This document shows, one piece after another, positions 2,862 to 57,685 of a stretch of DNA of 64,000 nucleotides. Under the pieces are notes generated by a model, which saw only the letters and a list, made by a program, of their open reading frames with translations, ran no database searches and had not been told where the DNA came from. The stretch is from Amaricoccus solimangrovi. Lineage in GTDB: Bacteria > Pseudomonadota > Alphaproteobacteria > Rhodobacterales > Rhodobacteraceae. The stretch lies in contig NZ_VFRP01000001.1 of the NCBI RefSeq assembly GCF_006385685.1, positions 310,001 through 374,000 of the forward strand. The letters run 5' to 3'. The first letter of the stretch is position 1, and every line of letters starts with the position of its first letter. Position numbers and translations under genes: made by a program.

Positions 2862-4268
2862 TCAGGCCGCGAGGGCGCGCGCGGCGCGCAGATCCTCGAC
2901 GAAGCGCGCGTATTCGCGCGCCTTCGCCTCCGCGTCGGGCAGGCGCAGCAGATAGGAGGGATGCACGGTCAGGTAGCCCGGCCGGTCGCCGAACCGCCAG
3001 GGACCGCGGTTCTTCGTCACCGGCACCGCGCGGCCCGCGAGCGCCAGCGCCGCGGTGGCGCCGAGCGCGACCGTCAGCCGGGGCGCGACGAGGTCGAGTT
3101 CGGTCTCGAGCCACCAGCGGTAATGGCGCACCTCGCCCGCCGTCGGCGTCTGGTGCAGCCGGCGCTTGCCGGTCTGCCTGAACTTGAAATGCTTGACGGC
3201 GTTCGTGAGATAGCAGGCGGCGCGGCCGATTCCCGCCTCGGCCAGCGCGCGGTCGAGAAGCTGGCCGGCGGGGCCGACGAAGGGCCGGCCCTGGCTGTCC
3301 TCCTGGTCGCCCGGCTGTTCGCCCACGAAGGCGATGGCGGCGTGGTCCGGCCCTTCGCCGAGCACGGCGCGCGTCCCGCCCTCCACGAAGGGATCGGAGC
3401 GCGCGATGATCGCGTTGAGTTCCGCGAGGCTCGCGGGCCTCTGTTCGGCCATCGCCGCCACGGCGCGGGCCGGGTCGCGTTTGCGGGGCATCTCCGCCTC
3501 CTTCTCGATCATCTCGCGCGCCCGCGCCGGGGCCTCCGCGATCAGCCCGGGGATCGTCGCCGCCTCGGGCAGGTCGCGCCAGTAGCGCCGCGGCATCTCC
3601 TGGCGCATCCGGGCGGGATTGACCCGCGCGGGATTGAACGTCGCCGCGTAATAGCCGGTCCAGGCGGCCTCGACGGGATCGCCCGCCGGCGCCTCGTCCC
3701 GCGTCGCGGGCGGGCCGAAGGCGAGGCTCTCGCCGTTCCAGCGGACGGAGCCGACGGGCGTCAGGATCGTCCAGTCGAGCGCGCGGAAACGGTCGCGGAA
3801 GAAGGGCGCCGCCGCTTCGAGGATGAAATGCTCCGGCTCGAACCAGGCGACGTAGCGTTCGAGCCCCGCCTCCTCGACGCGGCGGAAGCGGACGAAGGCG
3901 TGCATCTTGTGGATCTCGCGCCGGATCTCGCGCGCCATGGCCCCGAGCCGGTGGACGAGCGGGTCGGACGGGTCGTCGAGCAGCGCCGCCTCGCCATGGG
4001 TGAGGCGCCAGCAGAGGTCGTGGAGCCGCGCGTAGCGTTCGGGGGCGCGGTGCATAACGACGGTTGCGATCAGATCGACCGCCGCCCGGGGCAGCGGGAC
4101 CGCCGGTGCCTCCGGATGCGGAACGAGGGGCCGGGCGTGCAGATCGGCGGGCGCGCCCTCCTCCTGCCAGACCACCTCGGCGGGCGGGACGCCCTCGGCC
4201 ATCAGCGCGCGCAGCGCCGCGCGGAAGCCCGCGAGATTGGCCCCGGCGCGGAGCGCGACGGACCGCAT
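2862..4268 (-). CDS. DUF4130-UdgX fusion: uracil-DNA-binding glycosylase-like protein
   Basis: A 468-aa two-domain protein. Residues about 1-250 match the DUF4130 family that accompanies a radical SAM repair protein. Residues about 275-465 form a family 4-like uracil-DNA glycosylase of the UdgX class. Visible motifs are GEQPGDQED (316-324), followed by the PFVGPAG segment, the UdgX-specific loop KRRLHQ (368-373) and HPSYLLR (436-442). In mycobacterial UdgX the histidine of that loop attacks the sugar and leaves a covalent protein-DNA adduct; H372 is the equivalent. The start codon shares one base with the radical SAM stop (TGATG), so the two genes are translationally coupled. The radical SAM gene lies upstream with a LexA box. 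Confidence 0.9.
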   Translation of the reverse strand: MRSVALRAGANLAGFRAALRALMAEGVPPAEVVWQEEGAPADLHARPLVPHPEAPAVPLPRAAVDLIATVVMHRAPERYARLHDLCWRLTHGEAALLDDPSDPLVHRLGAMAREIRREIHKMHAFVRFRRVEEAGLERYVAWFEPEHFILEAAAPFFRDRFRALDWTILTPVGSVRWNGESLAFGPPATRDEAPAGDPVEAAWTGYYAATFNPARVNPARMRQEMPRRYWRDLPEAATIPGLIAEAPARAREMIEKEAEMPRKRDPARAVAAMAEQRPASLAELNAIIARSDPFVEGGTRAVLGEGPDHAAIAFVGEQPGDQEDSQGRPFVGPAGQLLDRALAEAGIGRAACYLTNAVKHFKFRQTGKRRLHQTPTAGEVRHYRWWLETELDLVAPRLTVALGATAALALAGRAVPVTKNRGPWRFGDRPGYLTVHPSYLLRLPDAEAKAREYARFVEDLRAARALAA

Positions 4269-5473
4269 CAGAAGAGCTCCAGCTGGCGCGGCTTCGCCGT
4301 GAGCCGCGCGCGCAGGTCGAGCCGGTCGAGCCCGGGCGCGCGATGGTCGGGCGTCACGATGAAGGGCAGGGGCCTGCGCGAATTGCGGGTCAGCCGTGCC
4401 AGGTCGGCGAGGCGGAGCGCGCCGTGGCGCCGCGCGGCGAGGATGCGGTCCACCACCCGGATCCCCAGCCCCGGCACGCGCAGCAGTTCCGAACGGCGCG
4501 CGCGGTTCACGTCGACCGGGAAGCGCTCGCGATGGCGCAGCGCCCAGGCCAGCTTCGGATCGATGCCGAGGTCGAGCATGCCGCCCTCGGTCGCCGCCGC
4601 GATCTCCGCGAGCGTGAAACCGTAGGACCTGAGCAGCCAGTCGGCCTGATAGAGCCGGTTCTCGCGGCCAAGCGGCGGCGCCTCGGGCGGCAGCGCGCTG
4701 CTCGGCTCCGGGATCGGCGAGAAGGCGGAATAGTAGACCCGCGCCAGCCGGTGCTCGCGGTAGAGCCGGTCGCTCGTCGTCAGCAGCTCGGTATCCGTCG
4801 CCACGTCGGCGCCGACGATCACCTGCGTGCTCTGTCCGGCGGGGGCGAAGCGGCGGCGCTCCTCCCGCGCCTCGGCGATGCGCGCGCGGGTCTGGGCCAT
4901 CGCGCCCTCGATCGCGGCGGCCGATTTCTCCGGCGCGAGCCGCCCGAGGCTCGCCGCGCTCGGCAGTTCGAGATTGACCGAGAGCCGGTCGGCCCAGAGC
5001 CCGGCCTGTTCGATGAGCCAGGGGCTCGCCTCCGGGATGGTCTTCAGGTGGATGTAGCCGGCGAAACCGTGGTCGCGCCTAAGGCCCCGCGCGATCCTGA
5101 GCATGTCCTCCATCGTCCGGTCGGGCGAGCGGGCGATGCCGGAGGAGAGGAAGAGCCCCTCGATGTAGTTGCGCTTGTAGAAGTCGAGCGTGACGGCGAT
5201 GACCTCCTCGACCGTGAACCGCGCGCGCGGCGTGTTGGAGGAACGCCGGTTCACGCAATAGGCGCAGTCGAACAGGCAGTAGTTCGTCATCAGGATCTTC
5301 AGGAGCGACACGCAGCGCCCGTCGGGCGTGTAGGAATGGCAGATGCCGTTCGAGGTCGAGCCGAGGCCGCCCGGCCCCGCGCGGCGTTTCGGCGCCCCGG
5401 AGGAGGCGCAGGAGGCATCGTATTTCGCCGCGTCGGCGAGGATGCGGAGCTTCGTGGCCAATCGGTCGTCCAT
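4268..5473 (-). CDS. Putative DNA modification/repair radical SAM protein
   Basis: A 401-aa radical SAM enzyme of the family found next to DUF4130/UdgX genes; the reaction is unknown. The SAM-cluster motif C66-x3-C70-x2-C73 (CLFDCAYC) lies near the N-terminus. Three more cysteines precede it (C22, C45, C54) and could bind a second cluster. The C-terminal part (around 325-360) carries a helix-hairpin-helix-like segment (LLRVPGLGIRVVDRIL), a DNA-contact fold, which supports a nucleic-acid substrate. The start is supported by the family-typical N-terminus (DAAKYDASCASSG) and by GGTGA nine bases upstream. That ribosome site overlaps the SOS box. Confidence 0.88.
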   Translation of the reverse strand: MDDRLATKLRILADAAKYDASCASSGAPKRRAGPGGLGSTSNGICHSYTPDGRCVSLLKILMTNYCLFDCAYCVNRRSSNTPRARFTVEEVIAVTLDFYKRNYIEGLFLSSGIARSPDRTMEDMLRIARGLRRDHGFAGYIHLKTIPEASPWLIEQAGLWADRLSVNLELPSAASLGRLAPEKSAAAIEGAMAQTRARIAEAREERRRFAPAGQSTQVIVGADVATDTELLTTSDRLYREHRLARVYYSAFSPIPEPSSALPPEAPPLGRENRLYQADWLLRSYGFTLAEIAAATEGGMLDLGIDPKLAWALRHRERFPVDVNRARRSELLRVPGLGIRVVDRILAARRHGALRLADLARLTRNSRRPLPFIVTPDHRAPGLDRLDLRARLTAKPRQLELF

Positions 5474-5480
5474 CGCTAAT

Positions 5481-5495
5481 GTTCACCATATGTTC
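5481..5495 (-). promoter_or_regulatory. LexA/SOS box of the radical SAM-UdgX operon
   Basis: Perfect GTTC-ACCATAT-GTTC, matching the alphaproteobacterial LexA box GTTC-N7-GTTC. It ends 7 bp before the radical SAM start codon, and its orientation relative to the gene is the same as in the lexA box at 9343-9357. Bound LexA would block initiation or early elongation; damage induction is inferred. Confidence 0.85.
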
Positions 5496-5645: not shown

Positions 5646-6128
5646 TCAGTGCGTGAGCCGCACCGAAAGCTGGCGCAGCGCCGAGCGGTCGGCGGCGCTG
5701 AGCCTGGGCAGGCCTGCGGTTTCCGCGTGGAGCCGCGACAGCAGATCCTCCAGCTCCTCGATCTCGAAATCCTCGTAGTCGCGATCCGCGCGGGCGAAGC
5801 TCGCGATGGTGCGGGTTCCGTCGGGCATGATCGCGATGGTGGCGCCGTTCATCAGCCCGTGGTTCTTCGCCGCGTTGAGCACGCCGGCGCTGTCGATCCG
5901 TTCCAGATCGCTCCAGCGGACATGGCCCAGATTCTGCACGCCCCAGCGCACGGTCGGGTCGTTCACCACCATCCCGTGCTCCGAATAATGATCCATCCAG
6001 CGCTTCGGATAGGTCTGGAAAAGATAGGCCGGTGCGGTGAAGCGGATGTGGAGCGCGATGGCGAATCCGGCCGGGCTGCGGCGGTCGAGCTCCCGCAACA
6101 AGCCGGCGATGCTCGTCCGATGAGCCAT
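5646..6128 (-). CDS. LuxR-type autoinducer-binding domain protein lacking the HTH
   Basis: A 160-aa protein consisting of an N-terminal autoinducer-binding domain only. The conserved pocket pattern W..HY...G....DP...W is present (KRWMDHYSEHGMVVNDP and a following W). The sequence stops after LPRLSAADRSALRQL, exactly where the DNA-binding HTH begins in full LuxR proteins, and no HTH remnant was seen downstream in the strand examined. The start at 6128 is chosen because AAAGGGGGG precedes it; a longer frame to 6206 lacks such a site. It is divergent from a full luxR. It could titrate signal or form inactive heterodimers; this is inference. Confidence 0.82.
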   Translation of the reverse strand: MAHRTSIAGLLRELDRRSPAGFAIALHIRFTAPAYLFQTYPKRWMDHYSEHGMVVNDPTVRWGVQNLGHVRWSDLERIDSAGVLNAAKNHGLMNGATIAIMPDGTRTIASFARADRDYEDFEIEELEDLLSRLHAETAGLPRLSAADRSALRQLSVRLTH

Positions 6129-6141
6129 TTTCCCCCCTTTG

Positions 6142-6160
6142 CTCGCGACATGGTTGCGAG
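6142..6160. promoter_or_regulatory. Imperfect 19-bp dyad, lux-box candidate
   Basis: CTCGC-GACATGGTT-GCGAG. Seven of nine position pairs are complementary. It lies in the divergent region between the truncated and full luxR genes, 14 bp before the start of the truncated gene. Size and symmetry fit a LuxR-family operator, but sequence identity to a known lux box is weak. Confidence 0.4.
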
Positions 6161-6189
6161 ATGGCGCGGATCCGCCTAATCTCCATCCG

Positions 6190-6206
6190 ATGGAAACTAG
6201 TTCCAT
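6190..6206. promoter_or_regulatory. Perfect ATGGAA-N5-TTCCAT dyad
   Basis: Six-base perfect arms separated by ACTAG, in the same divergent intergenic region about 50 bp before luxR. Possible operator; the binding protein is unknown. Confidence 0.4.
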
Positions 6207-6256: not shown

Positions 6257-6853
6257 ATGATAGCGCAGGACTTTCAGGAACTCGCCCCGGCAGGCTTCTA
6301 CATCGCCTTGCGCGTGGGTTTCGCCTTTCCCATGGTCGAGCAGAATCGCCTTCCGGAACTCTGGGTGCGCGAATACACGATGAGCGGCCTGATCGTGCAC
6401 GATCCGGCCATCGCCTGGTGCTACCGCAACGACGGCGCCGCGCGCTGGAGCGAGCTCGGAATCGAGGATGAACTCGGCGTGCTCGAACTCGCCAAGGCCC
6501 ATGACCTGCTCTTCGGCGCGGCGGTCAGTTGTCGCGACGCGGGTGATTCGGGACAGCGGAGCTTCGGCATCTTCTGCCGCTCCGACCGCGAGTTCGAGAC
6601 GGAGGAACTCGAGCGGCTGACCGCGCTCCTGCGCGCCGAGCACGCCGCGCTCGAACAGCCGCGGAAGCTGACGCCGGCGGAGCTCGAGACGCTCGGGCTC
6701 GTCAAGAACGGGTTGCTGATGAAGGAGATCGCCTGCGCGCTGGGCGTTTCGGAAAGCGCGATCAAGCAGCGGCTGAAGAGCGCCCGGCTGAAGCTCCGGG
6801 CCAAGACAGGGACCCAGGCCGCCGCCCGGGCGACCATGCTGGGCATGATCTGA
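6257..6853 (+). CDS. LuxR-family quorum-sensing transcriptional regulator
   Basis: A 198-aa regulator with an autoinducer-binding domain (about 10-130) carrying W36, Y40, D49, P50 and W54 at the family positions, and a C-terminal LuxR HTH (about 137-195: KLTPAELETLGLV then MKEIACALGVSESAIKQRL). It is expected to bind the acyl-homoserine lactone made by the synthase starting about 110 bp downstream, and to control that gene and others. It is divergent from the HTH-less paralogue, with two dyads between them. The start lacks a strong ribosome site. No specific luxR subfamily name can be assigned. Confidence 0.92.
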   Translation: MIAQDFQELAPAGFYIALRVGFAFPMVEQNRLPELWVREYTMSGLIVHDPAIAWCYRNDGAARWSELGIEDELGVLELAKAHDLLFGAAVSCRDAGDSGQRSFGIFCRSDREFETEELERLTALLRAEHAALEQPRKLTPAELETLGLVKNGLLMKEIACALGVSESAIKQRLKSARLKLRAKTGTQAAARATMLGMI

Positions 6854-6961: not shown

Positions 6962-7573
6962 ATGCGCAACATCACTTTCGCCTTTCTTGACCAGCATCGC
7001 CACGGCGCCGCCTTCCACGACTTCCTGCGGCTCCGCAAATCCTTCTTCGTCGATGAACTGGGATGGGACATTCCCCATGACGACGAAGTGGAAATGGACC
7101 AGTACGACAACCCGCTCGCGCATTACTCGCTGGTGCTGCGCGGGGGCGCGGTCATCGGCGGCGCGCGCTGCATGCCGACCACCGCGCGCTGGGGCAATCA
7201 CACCTATATGTTGCGCGACGCGCTGCGCGGCGGGCTGCGCCACATCCCGCCCGAGGTGATGCCGGCCGACATCGCGACGCCCGAGGTCTGGGAATGCACC
7301 CGGCTCGTGATGTCCCACGACGTCGCGGGCCATGCCGAGCGCGCGACCTGCCTGTCGCTCATCGTCGACGGGCTGGTGCGGGTCGCGCGGTCGCGCGGCG
7401 CCGAGGCGCTGGTCTCGCTGTCGCCGCTGCCGCTGATGCGGGGGCTGCGCCAGCTCGGCTTCGACGCGCAACGCCTCGGCGAGCCCTATCTCAACGAGAA
7501 CGACGGACGCAAATACGCGGTGCTGCAGATGTCCGCCACCCCCGCGCCCGAACAGCTGATGGCGGCCGAGTAG
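6962..7573 (+). CDS. Acyl-homoserine-lactone synthase
   Basis: A 203-aa LuxI-family enzyme that joins an acyl group to S-adenosylmethionine to make the AHL signal. Conserved catalytic and binding residues are visible: R25, F29, W35, E44, D46, D49 (in FFVDELGWDIPHDDEVEMDQYD), R69 (GGARC), and E111/R114 in WECTR. It follows the luxR gene in the same direction after 108 bp. The ATG has GAGG eight bases upstream inside a hairpin. Acyl-chain length cannot be predicted from the sequence alone. Confidence 0.93.
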   Translation: MRNITFAFLDQHRHGAAFHDFLRLRKSFFVDELGWDIPHDDEVEMDQYDNPLAHYSLVLRGGAVIGGARCMPTTARWGNHTYMLRDALRGGLRHIPPEVMPADIATPEVWECTRLVMSHDVAGHAERATCLSLIVDGLVRVARSRGAEALVSLSPLPLMRGLRQLGFDAQRLGEPYLNENDGRKYAVLQMSATPAPEQLMAAE

Positions 7574-8635: not shown

Positions 8636-9310
8636 TCAGTAGGTGCGGAGCAAGCCGACGAGCCTGCCCTGCACCCGGACCTGGTGATCCTGGTAGAGCC
8701 GGGTTTCGTAGGCGGGATTCGCCGCCTCCAGCGCGATCGTGCCGCCCCGGCGGCGGAAAGTCTTCAGCGTCGCCTCCTCGCCGTCGATCAGCGCCACGAC
8801 GATGTCGCCGTTGTTCGCGGTCGACTGCTCCTGGATCACGACCAGGTCGCCGTTGTTGATCCCGGCGTTGATCATCGAATCGCCCCGCACCTCGAGCGCG
8901 TAGTGCCGGCCCTGGTGCGCGAGCATCGCGGCCGGAACCGCGACGTTGCGCGACACCTGCTGGATCGCCTCGATCGGCGTGCCGGCGGCGATCCGGCCCA
9001 TGACCGGCAGTTCGAAGAAGGCCGCGGCCGTAGGCGTCGCGACCGGCGCCTCCGCCTCCCGGGCGGAGGGAAGCGCCGCGCCCGCGCTCTCGAAACTGTC
9101 GGGCAGGCGCAGGATCTCGATCGCGCGGGCCCGGTGGGCGAGTCGGCGGATGAAGCCGCGCTCCTCGAGCGCGGTGATCAGCCGGTGGATCCCGGATTTC
9201 GAGCGGAGGTCGAGCGCCTCCTTCATCTCGTCGAAGGAGGGGGGGACGCCGTCCCGGCGCAGGCGATCGTGGATGAAGTGCAGCAGATCATATTGCTTGC
9301 GCGTCAGCAT
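8636..9310 (-). CDS. lexA: LexA repressor/autoprotease
   Basis: SOS master repressor, 224 aa. The winged-helix DNA-binding domain covers about residues 1-65, with the recognition segment [18 protein letters not shown]. The self-cleavage bond is A109-G110 ([11 protein letters not shown]), and the catalytic dyad is S145 (GDSM) and K183 (EEATLKTF), so RecA-stimulated autocleavage should be intact. It is last in a leftward run of trp and moa/moe genes but has its own promoter 33 bp upstream overlapped by a LexA box. Targets visible in this window are lexA itself and the radical SAM-UdgX pair. Confidence 0.97.
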
Positions 9311-9342: not shown

Positions 9343-9357
9343 GTTCTAGAAACGTTC
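9343..9357 (-). promoter_or_regulatory. LexA/SOS box of lexA
   Basis: Perfect GTTC-TAGAAAC-GTTC, the alphaproteobacterial LexA operator, 33 bp upstream of the lexA start. It overlaps the -10 and part of the spacer of the lexA promoter, giving direct autorepression. Confidence 0.92.
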
Positions 9358-56980: not shown

Positions 56981-57685
56981 ATGCAACCCGATACCCTCGT
57001 CGCCGCGCAGACCCTCGATTTCTCGCTCTTCGCGCTGTTCCTGCGCGCGACCTTCACGGTGAAGATCGTGATGGTGCTGCTGCTCGCGGCCTCGTTCTGG
57101 TCCTGGGCGATCATCCTCCAGAAACATTTCGACCTGCGGCGGGCGAAGGAGGAGGCGCGCGACTTCGACCAGGCCTTCTGGTCCGGCGATCCGCTCGATA
57201 CCGTCTTCGACACGCTCGGGCCGGAGCCGCGCGGCGGCGCGGCGCGCGTCTTCGCCGCCGGCATGACCGAGTGGCGCCGCTCGCATCGCGCGGACGGCGG
57301 GCTGATCGCTGGCGCGCAGAGCCGGATCGAACGGGCGATGAACGTGGCGATCGGGCGCGAGGCGGAGATCCTGCAGAAGGGGCTCACCTATCTCGCGACC
57401 GTGGGCTCGATCGCGCCCTTCGTCGGCCTCTTCGGCACGGTCTGGGGCATCAAGGGCTCCTTCGAGGAGATCGCGGCGCAGCAGAGCACCAATCTCGCCG
57501 TGGTGGCGCCGGGCATCGCCGAGGCGCTGGTCGCCACCGCGCTCGGCCTGCTCGCGGCGATCCCGGCGGTGATCTTCTACAACAAGCTCAACCAGGACGC
57601 CGAGACGACGATCGGAAGCTACGAGAGCTTCGCGGACGAATTCGCGCTGATCCTGTCGCGGCAGCTCGACCGGACCGCGGCCTGA
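56981..57685 (+). CDS. tolQ: Tol-Pal subunit TolQ
   Basis: Inner-membrane proton-channel protein of the ExbB/TolQ family, 234 aa with three membrane helices. The conserved C-terminal helices carry LATVGSIAPFVGLFGTVWGI and APGIAEALVATALGLLAAIPAVIFYN. It energises TolA during outer-membrane constriction in division. The start at 56981 is chosen because earlier in-frame sequence is not TolQ-like. It is 1 bp from tolR. Confidence 0.97.
   Translation: MQPDTLVAAQTLDFSLFALFLRATFTVKIVMVLLLAASFWSWAIILQKHFDLRRAKEEARDFDQAFWSGDPLDTVFDTLGPEPRGGAARVFAAGMTEWRRSHRADGGLIAGAQSRIERAMNVAIGREAEILQKGLTYLATVGSIAPFVGLFGTVWGIKGSFEEIAAQQSTNLAVVAPGIAEALVATALGLLAAIPAVIFYNKLNQDAETTIGSYESFADEFALILSRQLDRTAA

Follow-up and report, generated by a model that had tools for sequence, protein, structure and literature searches.

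Within a 64,000-nucleotide stretch of the Amaricoccus solimangrovi genome (contig NZ_VFRP01000001.1, positions 310,001 to 374,000; hereafter the window), a two-gene operon on the minus strand encodes a radical S-adenosylmethionine (SAM) protein and a DUF4130-UdgX fusion protein. The operon is preceded by a LexA-type box whose conservation in relatives makes SOS control well supported. Together with a C-terminal tail on the radical SAM protein that resembles a beta-clamp-binding motif, and with the intact covalent-bond residues of the UdgX domain, this arrangement makes it reasonably probable that the operon is induced by DNA damage to process lesions at the replication fork, while tethered to the clamp, UdgX being an add-on for the capping of abasic sites.

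A conserved LexA-type box precedes the operon

The direct repeat GAACATATGGTGAAC (given on the gene strand; 5481-5495, minus strand) is a perfect GAAC-N7-GAAC sequence, and the radical SAM gene's ATG, at 5473, follows it after 7 bp, as the initial annotation of this DNA had reported. That annotation also proposed LexA control and a search for the box upstream of the gene pair in alphaproteobacterial genomes. The box proves to be conserved in each of three samples (11/12, 68/70 and 25/27 loci), which supports the proposal.

Specifically, an even sample of 240 genomes of the class contains 12 that exceed the cut-off of TIGR03916, the family model of the radical SAM protein, and 11 of these, the window's genome included, carry the box. 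For the second sample, at least 586 relatives from named genomes were narrowed to the best 80, of which 70 are assigned to the Alphaproteobacteria by title (the title of L070 gives Proteobacteria only). The box occurs no more than 150 nt upstream of a conserved anchor in 68 of these 70 loci, a figure that adds one locus recovered by tblastn (L075) to the 67 of 69 in the main count. At 63 of 67 box-bearing loci the end of the box is within 31 nt of the chosen start codon. Elsewhere in these loci the background amounts to 20 matches per 710,834 nt (0.004 per 150 nt), and the N7 spacer of the box is biased toward ATA-rich letters. In the window's own family, from which three weak matches were left out, the box is present in 25 of 27 matches, the window's included; the two misses are L190, which has a one-mismatch form, and L194, a fragment without the gene start that was scored as a miss. 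Unparsed loci numbered two among the 80 from named genomes and six among the 27 from the family. L075 and those six were recovered by tblastn, and L074, unparsed in a later pass, was already part of the earlier 80-locus counts.

Outside the class, the operator switches along with lineage, which would be hard to explain unless SOS control had been selected. At 9 of 13 distinct loci from the same phylum, the alphaproteobacterial box is replaced by CTGT-N8-ACAG, the E. coli-type LexA operator. These 13 loci derive from eight chosen among 17 'same phylum' matches, seven over the cut-off from a further search, and L134, after merging of duplicates (L162/L199, L164/L198 and L165/L203); a gamma- or betaproteobacterial label for them would be a reading of kinship codes. 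Among three loci of Verrucomicrobiota, one (L106) carries TGTTC-N4-GAACA. We take these alternative operators to be the LexA motifs of their respective groups.

A radical SAM protein with extra cysteines and a clamp-binding-like tail

The first gene (4268-5473, minus strand) encodes a protein of 401 amino acids that scores 517 bits against TIGR03916 (rSAM_link_UDG; cut-off 343.5), a family curated under the title 'putative DNA modification/repair radical SAM protein' and which we equate with COG4277. The general Pfam Radical_SAM model falls below its cut-off (25 bits versus 29.5). The second gene (2862-4268, minus strand) encodes the 468-residue fusion protein, as matched by both NCBIfam and Pfam models, and overlaps the first at a TGATG junction (4266-4270). 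Thus, the pair and the overlap described in the initial annotation are both borne out, with TIGR03916, TIGR03915 and TIGR03914 all above their curated cut-offs.

An alignment of 80 radical SAM proteins (the window's and those of 79 loci) reveals that the radical SAM motif C66-x3-C70-x2-C73 (5255-5278, minus strand) is invariant. The same is true of three additional cysteines, C22, C45 and C54, and of H46, all within the stretch encoded at 5312-5410 (minus strand), which are candidate ligands for an auxiliary cluster or metal. The extra cysteines also occur in further parsed loci beyond this alignment. An AlphaFold model of the protein has a mean predicted local distance difference test (pLDDT) score of 87, and residues 21-50 are of low confidence (block means 48-53); metal-binding parts modeled without their metal often are. 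From the invariant residues, an additional metal or cluster site is at most a fair guess. Nearer the C terminus, residues 320-352 (4418-4516, minus strand) form a candidate helix-hairpin-helix motif that scores 24.7 bits with Pfam HHH_3, below the cut-off of 27, and that part of the picture is accompanied by weak profile matches to the helix-hairpin-helix regions of ComEA-type proteins and RuvA (E values of 0.012 and 0.077).

The protein ends in QLELF (residues 397-401; 4271-4285, minus strand), a pattern that we read as a beta-clamp consensus of the QLxLF type. The form Q[LMI]xL[FLI], or its six-residue variant, occurs within the last 22 residues of 69 of the 80 aligned proteins and in only one of 485 control open reading frames (ORFs), which are long ORFs of the same loci chosen by length rather than annotated genes. 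For the strict form Q[LM]xLF, the counts are 49/80 and 0/485. A looser Qxx form is found in 77 of the 80 tails, a figure that has no control comparison. The tails of other proteobacterial members read QMALW, QLSLF, QMALL, QLSLI, QMNLF, QLSLL, QASLF, QLTLF, QLPLF and the like. In the model the last blocks of the window's protein have pLDDT values of 62 and 41, and such a low-confidence tail fits a free docking peptide. We infer that the radical SAM protein probably docks on the beta clamp. Literature searches, which here and below left most subscription papers outside their reach, found no paper that joins a clamp-binding motif with a radical SAM protein.

A UdgX domain that has lost its iron-sulfur cysteines

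The fusion protein begins with a DUF4130 domain (TIGR03915, residues 11-236; 3561-4238, minus strand) that scores 187.6 bits against a cut-off of 112.25, and 121.9 bits with the Pfam DUF4130 model (cut-off 27). It continues into a UdgX domain (TIGR03914, residues 239-462; 2883-3554, minus strand; 296.7 bits, cut-off 189.95), for which the Pfam uracil-DNA glycosylase (UDG) model is also above its cut-off and Foldseek returns UdgX entries. The AlphaFold model has a mean pLDDT of 92.1 and a predicted template modeling (pTM) score of 0.61, and its Foldseek matches (the best 50 of 471 and the best 50 of 407) are mainly proteins with UDG domains and polymerase proteins, with a few weak others.

The active residues that PMC10359453 names for UdgX are in place. 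Because 11 of the 79 parsed loci lacked a usable second ORF, 69 fusion proteins could be aligned, namely the window's and those of the other 68 loci. Motif A, GEQPG (3309-3323, minus strand), contains E317 and Q318, and the R-loop, KRRLH (3153-3167, minus strand), contains R370 and the covalent-bond histidine H372, which corresponds to H109 of the Mycobacterium smegmatis enzyme (MsmUdgX). These four residues and N356 are kept in all 69 rows, and H436 and R442 of motif B, HPSYLLR (2943-2963, minus strand), in 68.

What the window's domain lacks is a CxxC pair and a third cysteine, which we take to be the holders of the 4Fe-4S cluster found in the M. smegmatis prototype. All three are absent from the window's sequence, and 17 of the remaining 68 (L054-L068, L071 and L109) lack them too, with a tyrosine at the third position. 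They are lost as well in L184, which is outside the alignment; the UdgX of L094 is truncated and its cysteines were not judged. On a quick tree of 107 sequences of the radical SAM partner, not of UdgX itself, the loss requires three changes, two of them forced by starred branches, when rows without a readable UdgX are not counted. The window sits in a group of 16 cluster-free sequences (Shimodaira-Hasegawa-like approximate likelihood ratio test value of 99) that also includes Methylobacterium, Azospirillum and Acidocella, among others. The tree leaves out L134, L161 and the loci then unparsed, among them L075, L155, L158, L160, L179-L181, L186, L188 and L193.

Does such a protein still qualify as UdgX? 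The accessible text of PMC10359453 gives the signature as R107 and H109, with Q53, and the window has the counterparts R370, H372 and Q318. Because that text names R107 and H109 rather than the cluster as the signature, we file the window's domain as a UdgX variant. A UdgX without the cluster is not mentioned in that portion of PMC10359453, and no other paper on the iron-sulfur cluster of UdgX was found. If active, the cluster-free form would show that the cluster is dispensable for the covalent chemistry, and it might be easier to handle as a tool for capturing uracil-containing DNA.

Core unit and distribution

In eight genomes (G413, G419, G310, G277, G303, G257, G904 and G906) the neighbor of the radical SAM gene encodes DUF4130 without a UdgX motif; the fusion is present in G821 and G515. 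All eight were searched for TIGR03914, and none has a match over the cut-off, with weaker UDG-like matches in four. The radical SAM protein and DUF4130 are what all these loci have in common; because the eight genomes show no UdgX over the cut-off, these two look like the core of the system and UdgX like an add-on.

Distribution of the operon is patchy, as the 12 genomes among 240 of the class indicate. Caulobacter vibrioides, the same species as C. crescentus, served as a control genome; it has a match to the radical SAM family and exceeds the TIGR03915 cut-off. The best match in the window's own family stands at 67%, versus 72% for Azospirillum, and the one genome of the same genus that was searched (G643) has none. 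This combination suggests lateral transfer of the operon. Relatives of the radical SAM gene occur in 158 of 72,556 records of a plasmid collection, 142 of them predicted to be non-mobilizable, and are most frequent in Phaeobacter (58), Paracoccus (15) and Azospirillum (11). A phage collection yielded 10 matching records, namely two large annotated records of one name and eight unannotated contigs, of which five (one annotated, four unannotated) were inspected. A phage origin was rejected because the annotated record carries glyS, glyQ and other housekeeping genes and is treated as bacterial; among the four contigs, only L222 gave a parsed radical SAM reading frame.

LexA-type boxes elsewhere in the genome

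The presumed repressor gene, lexA (8636-9310, minus strand; TIGR00498, 185.5 bits, cut-off 110.95), is located 3.2 kb from the operon and has its own box, GAACGTTTCTAGAAC (9343-9357, minus strand), found as a pattern match; the initial annotation of the operon makes no mention of this neighbor. Seven box regions were picked by eye among the 106 boxes of the genome, and in four of these a damage-type or radical SAM gene follows the box. These are lexA (L244), recA (L243), a cassette resembling imuA-imuB-dnaE2 (L239, L260) and a second radical SAM gene (L240, G000:C103). In the cassette, imuA scores 37 bits against a cut-off of 150, and imuB and dnaE2 were identified by eye. The product of the second radical SAM gene belongs to the PA0069 family and, given a perfect GTTC-N7-GTTC box 4 bp before a start codon, is possibly another radical SAM enzyme under SOS control.

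The window holds one more perfect box, its third, at 57329-57343 (GAACGGGCGATGAAC). Adjoining the operon (5646-6206, 6257-6853 and 6962-7573) are a gene with an autoinducer-binding domain (Pfam PF03472) and, as judged by eye, ORFs resembling a LuxR-like regulator and an acyl-homoserine-lactone synthase.

Proposed mechanism and alternatives

We propose the following sequence of events. LexA, bound to the box next to the start codon, would repress both genes until its RecA-stimulated cleavage lifts the repression, a step for which the sequence evidence is strong. The radical SAM enzyme would then dock on the beta clamp and on DNA, as the conserved C-terminal motif and the helix-hairpin-helix segment suggest. 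With DUF4130 as its partner, it would use the CX3CX2C cluster to generate a 5′-deoxyadenosyl radical from SAM and would act on a damaged nucleotide, perhaps with the help of a second metal center formed by the three extra invariant cysteines. Judging from the biochemistry of MsmUdgX and the intact residues, the fused UdgX would remove either uracil or a base that the radical SAM enzyme has converted to a uracil-like form, and would bond through H372 to C1′ of the sugar, thereby capping the abasic site against cutting near the fork. The protein families are the basis for predicting both the radical chemistry on DNA and the covalent capping. The view of the initial annotation that the chemistry of the radical SAM enzyme is unknown still stands, and any particular lesion is an improbable choice of substrate. 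In its most specific form, in which clamp-tethered radical chemistry is performed on a lesion at a stalled fork, DUF4130 acts as an enzyme, and a lineage-specific, cluster-free UdgX caps the site covalently, we hold the proposal tentatively, at somewhat less than an even chance.

Several observations weigh against this proposal. Exact operators of the kinds tested are missing from one locus of the class sample (L032), from L083 and L085 among the 70 alphaproteobacterial loci (one-mismatch forms are visible by eye), from four of the 13 other proteobacterial loci (L134, from a record named Acinetobacter; L161; L200; and L201, which has a near match), from two of the three Verrucomicrobiota loci and from both Rhodanobacteraceae loci. 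Nothing clear lies behind the box in three of the seven regions inspected in the window's genome (L238, L241 and L242). The clamp-like pattern was missed in 11 of the 80 tails, including all seven from Xanthomonadales (with forms such as QASLF) and L127, which has no such form at all. Among the other proteobacterial tails, that of L201 shows only QQAFDF. The Foldseek matches of the radical SAM model (HydE, viperin, biotin synthase, MiaB and LIAS among the best 50 of 79; E 0.001) are general radical SAM folds with query template modeling scores of 0.33-0.45, and they give no pointer to a DNA substrate. For DUF4130, no convincing relative was found by profile searches of the PDB, and no fold was identified; we disbelieve the matches obtained (a ribosomal protein at E 0.0094 and another at E 0.7).

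A further contrary point is that five Xanthomonas and Stenotrophomonas loci (L084, L093, L095, L112 and L126) carry the palindrome TCTCA-N5-TGAGA before the operon, extended in four of the five to GTCTCA-N5-TGAGAC. The longer form has only 2, 2 and 3 sites in three genomes, and a control pattern has none. Its sites (regions L216, L219, L220 and L221) precede the operon, as judged by identical sequence, and a DEAD/DEAH helicase gene (in L216 a partial sequence nearest to TIGR03817 but below cut-off; in L220 and L221 by eye), as well as uvrA in the one Stenotrophomonas genome. The palindrome may mark a small damage regulon. Inspection of 6 of the 16 sites of the shorter palindrome showed that all three genomes have an additional site (L247, L249 and L251) next to a gene for an NRDE-like protein. 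The middles of these sites are similarly A/T-rich, and in L251 a gene reading like mraZ is also adjacent.

How do other explanations compare? That the box is a chance match, leaving the pair outside LexA control in the window's genome, would find some encouragement in the pattern counts: 106 matches genome-wide against 38 for a control pattern, and three in the window against 1.3 expected, with three or more in 19 of 100 shuffles. The box stands above chance because of its position and conservation, not because of these counts, which alone are weak evidence, and on that ground we reject a coincidence as barely credible. Another explanation is that the radical SAM enzyme directly reverses a thymine photoproduct of UV light, as spore photoproduct lyase (SPL, or SplB) does, with the DUF4130-UdgX protein as an accessory. 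SOS control would suit UV damage, and PMC3765255 describes the enzymes that accompany DUF4130 as SplB-like and proposes that DUF4130 and its partners might modify thymines. However, TIGR03916 is the only NCBIfam match to the protein at E 0.01, with no SPL model found, no SPL entry is present among the best 50 of 79 PDB matches by Foldseek, which is an indirect test, and the genome has a separate radical SAM protein of the PA0069 family (L240) behind its own box. We consider this explanation unlikely.

Two others appear less likely still. The radical SAM protein and DUF4130 could undo the covalent bond between UdgX and DNA, making UdgX a reversible protector. The fusion and the gene order would suit such a role, and with the covalent-bond residues conserved in all 69 fusions, cells must cope with the adduct, but the eight genomes with stand-alone DUF4130 and no UdgX over the cut-off imply that the core there has work to do without a UdgX adduct. 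Likewise, the enzyme could install or remove a DNA base modification in a physiological or defense role rather than in repair, as its curated family name and its patchy distribution would allow. The occurrence of SOS-type operators across several lineages, like the clamp-like motif, instead favors a damage response, and the matches in the phage collection do not establish a phage role, given that the inspected annotated record reads as bacterial. We give both of these ideas little weight.

If clamp-tethered repair by the operon is correct, then it would differ as a repair route from base excision, from reversal by photolyase and from translesion synthesis, in an operon that recurs across the Proteobacteria and beyond. 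The clamp-like tail and the UdgX-free core are testable entry points to the site of action, the partner and the dispensability of UdgX.

Comparison with known systems

Lipoyl synthase and the methylthiotransferases likewise have three cysteines ahead of CX3CX2C, though at a different spacing, and the Foldseek matches include LIAS and MiaB. Searches of the PDB revealed no sequence relation between these enzymes and the radical SAM protein, whose substrate is presumably DNA, so that the resemblance is no more than an analogy. M. smegmatis UdgX (6ail, 6ajo) shares GEQPG, the arginine and histidine of the R-loop and HPSxLLR with the window's domain, at 47-50% identity in Foldseek alignments. The domain here differs in following DUF4130 within a fusion protein, in sharing an operon with a radical SAM gene, and in missing the prototype's CxxC pair and third cysteine.

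In the accessible parts of PMC3765255, DUF4130 is associated with SplB-like radical SAM enzymes and UDGs, which together might modify thymines. The operon described here displays the same association of DUF4130, radical SAM protein and UDG in an SOS context, whereas its family is TIGR03916 and no SplB model matched; the clamp motif and the iron-sulfur loss are not mentioned in those parts. No paper was found that pairs UdgX with a radical SAM protein or with LexA.

The closest counterpart is the COG1573-COG4277 operon, for which PMC8565304 predicts SOS regulation in Bacteroidetes and cites such a system as reported earlier in Verrucomicrobia and Alphaproteobacteria, the cited reports concerning Verrucomicrobia and Caulobacter. 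It too consists of two genes, includes a UDG-family protein and has predicted LexA-type control. Because PMC8565304 already reports this control, our evidence for it is confirmation rather than discovery. The operon in the window differs by its alphaproteobacterial direct repeat, by the fusion of the UDG to DUF4130 and by the loss of the iron-sulfur cysteines. To the known systems the present analysis adds the UdgX without the three iron-sulfur cysteines, the probable core of radical SAM protein and DUF4130, the three extra invariant cysteines and the clamp-like tail, the last of which is the lead most worth testing.

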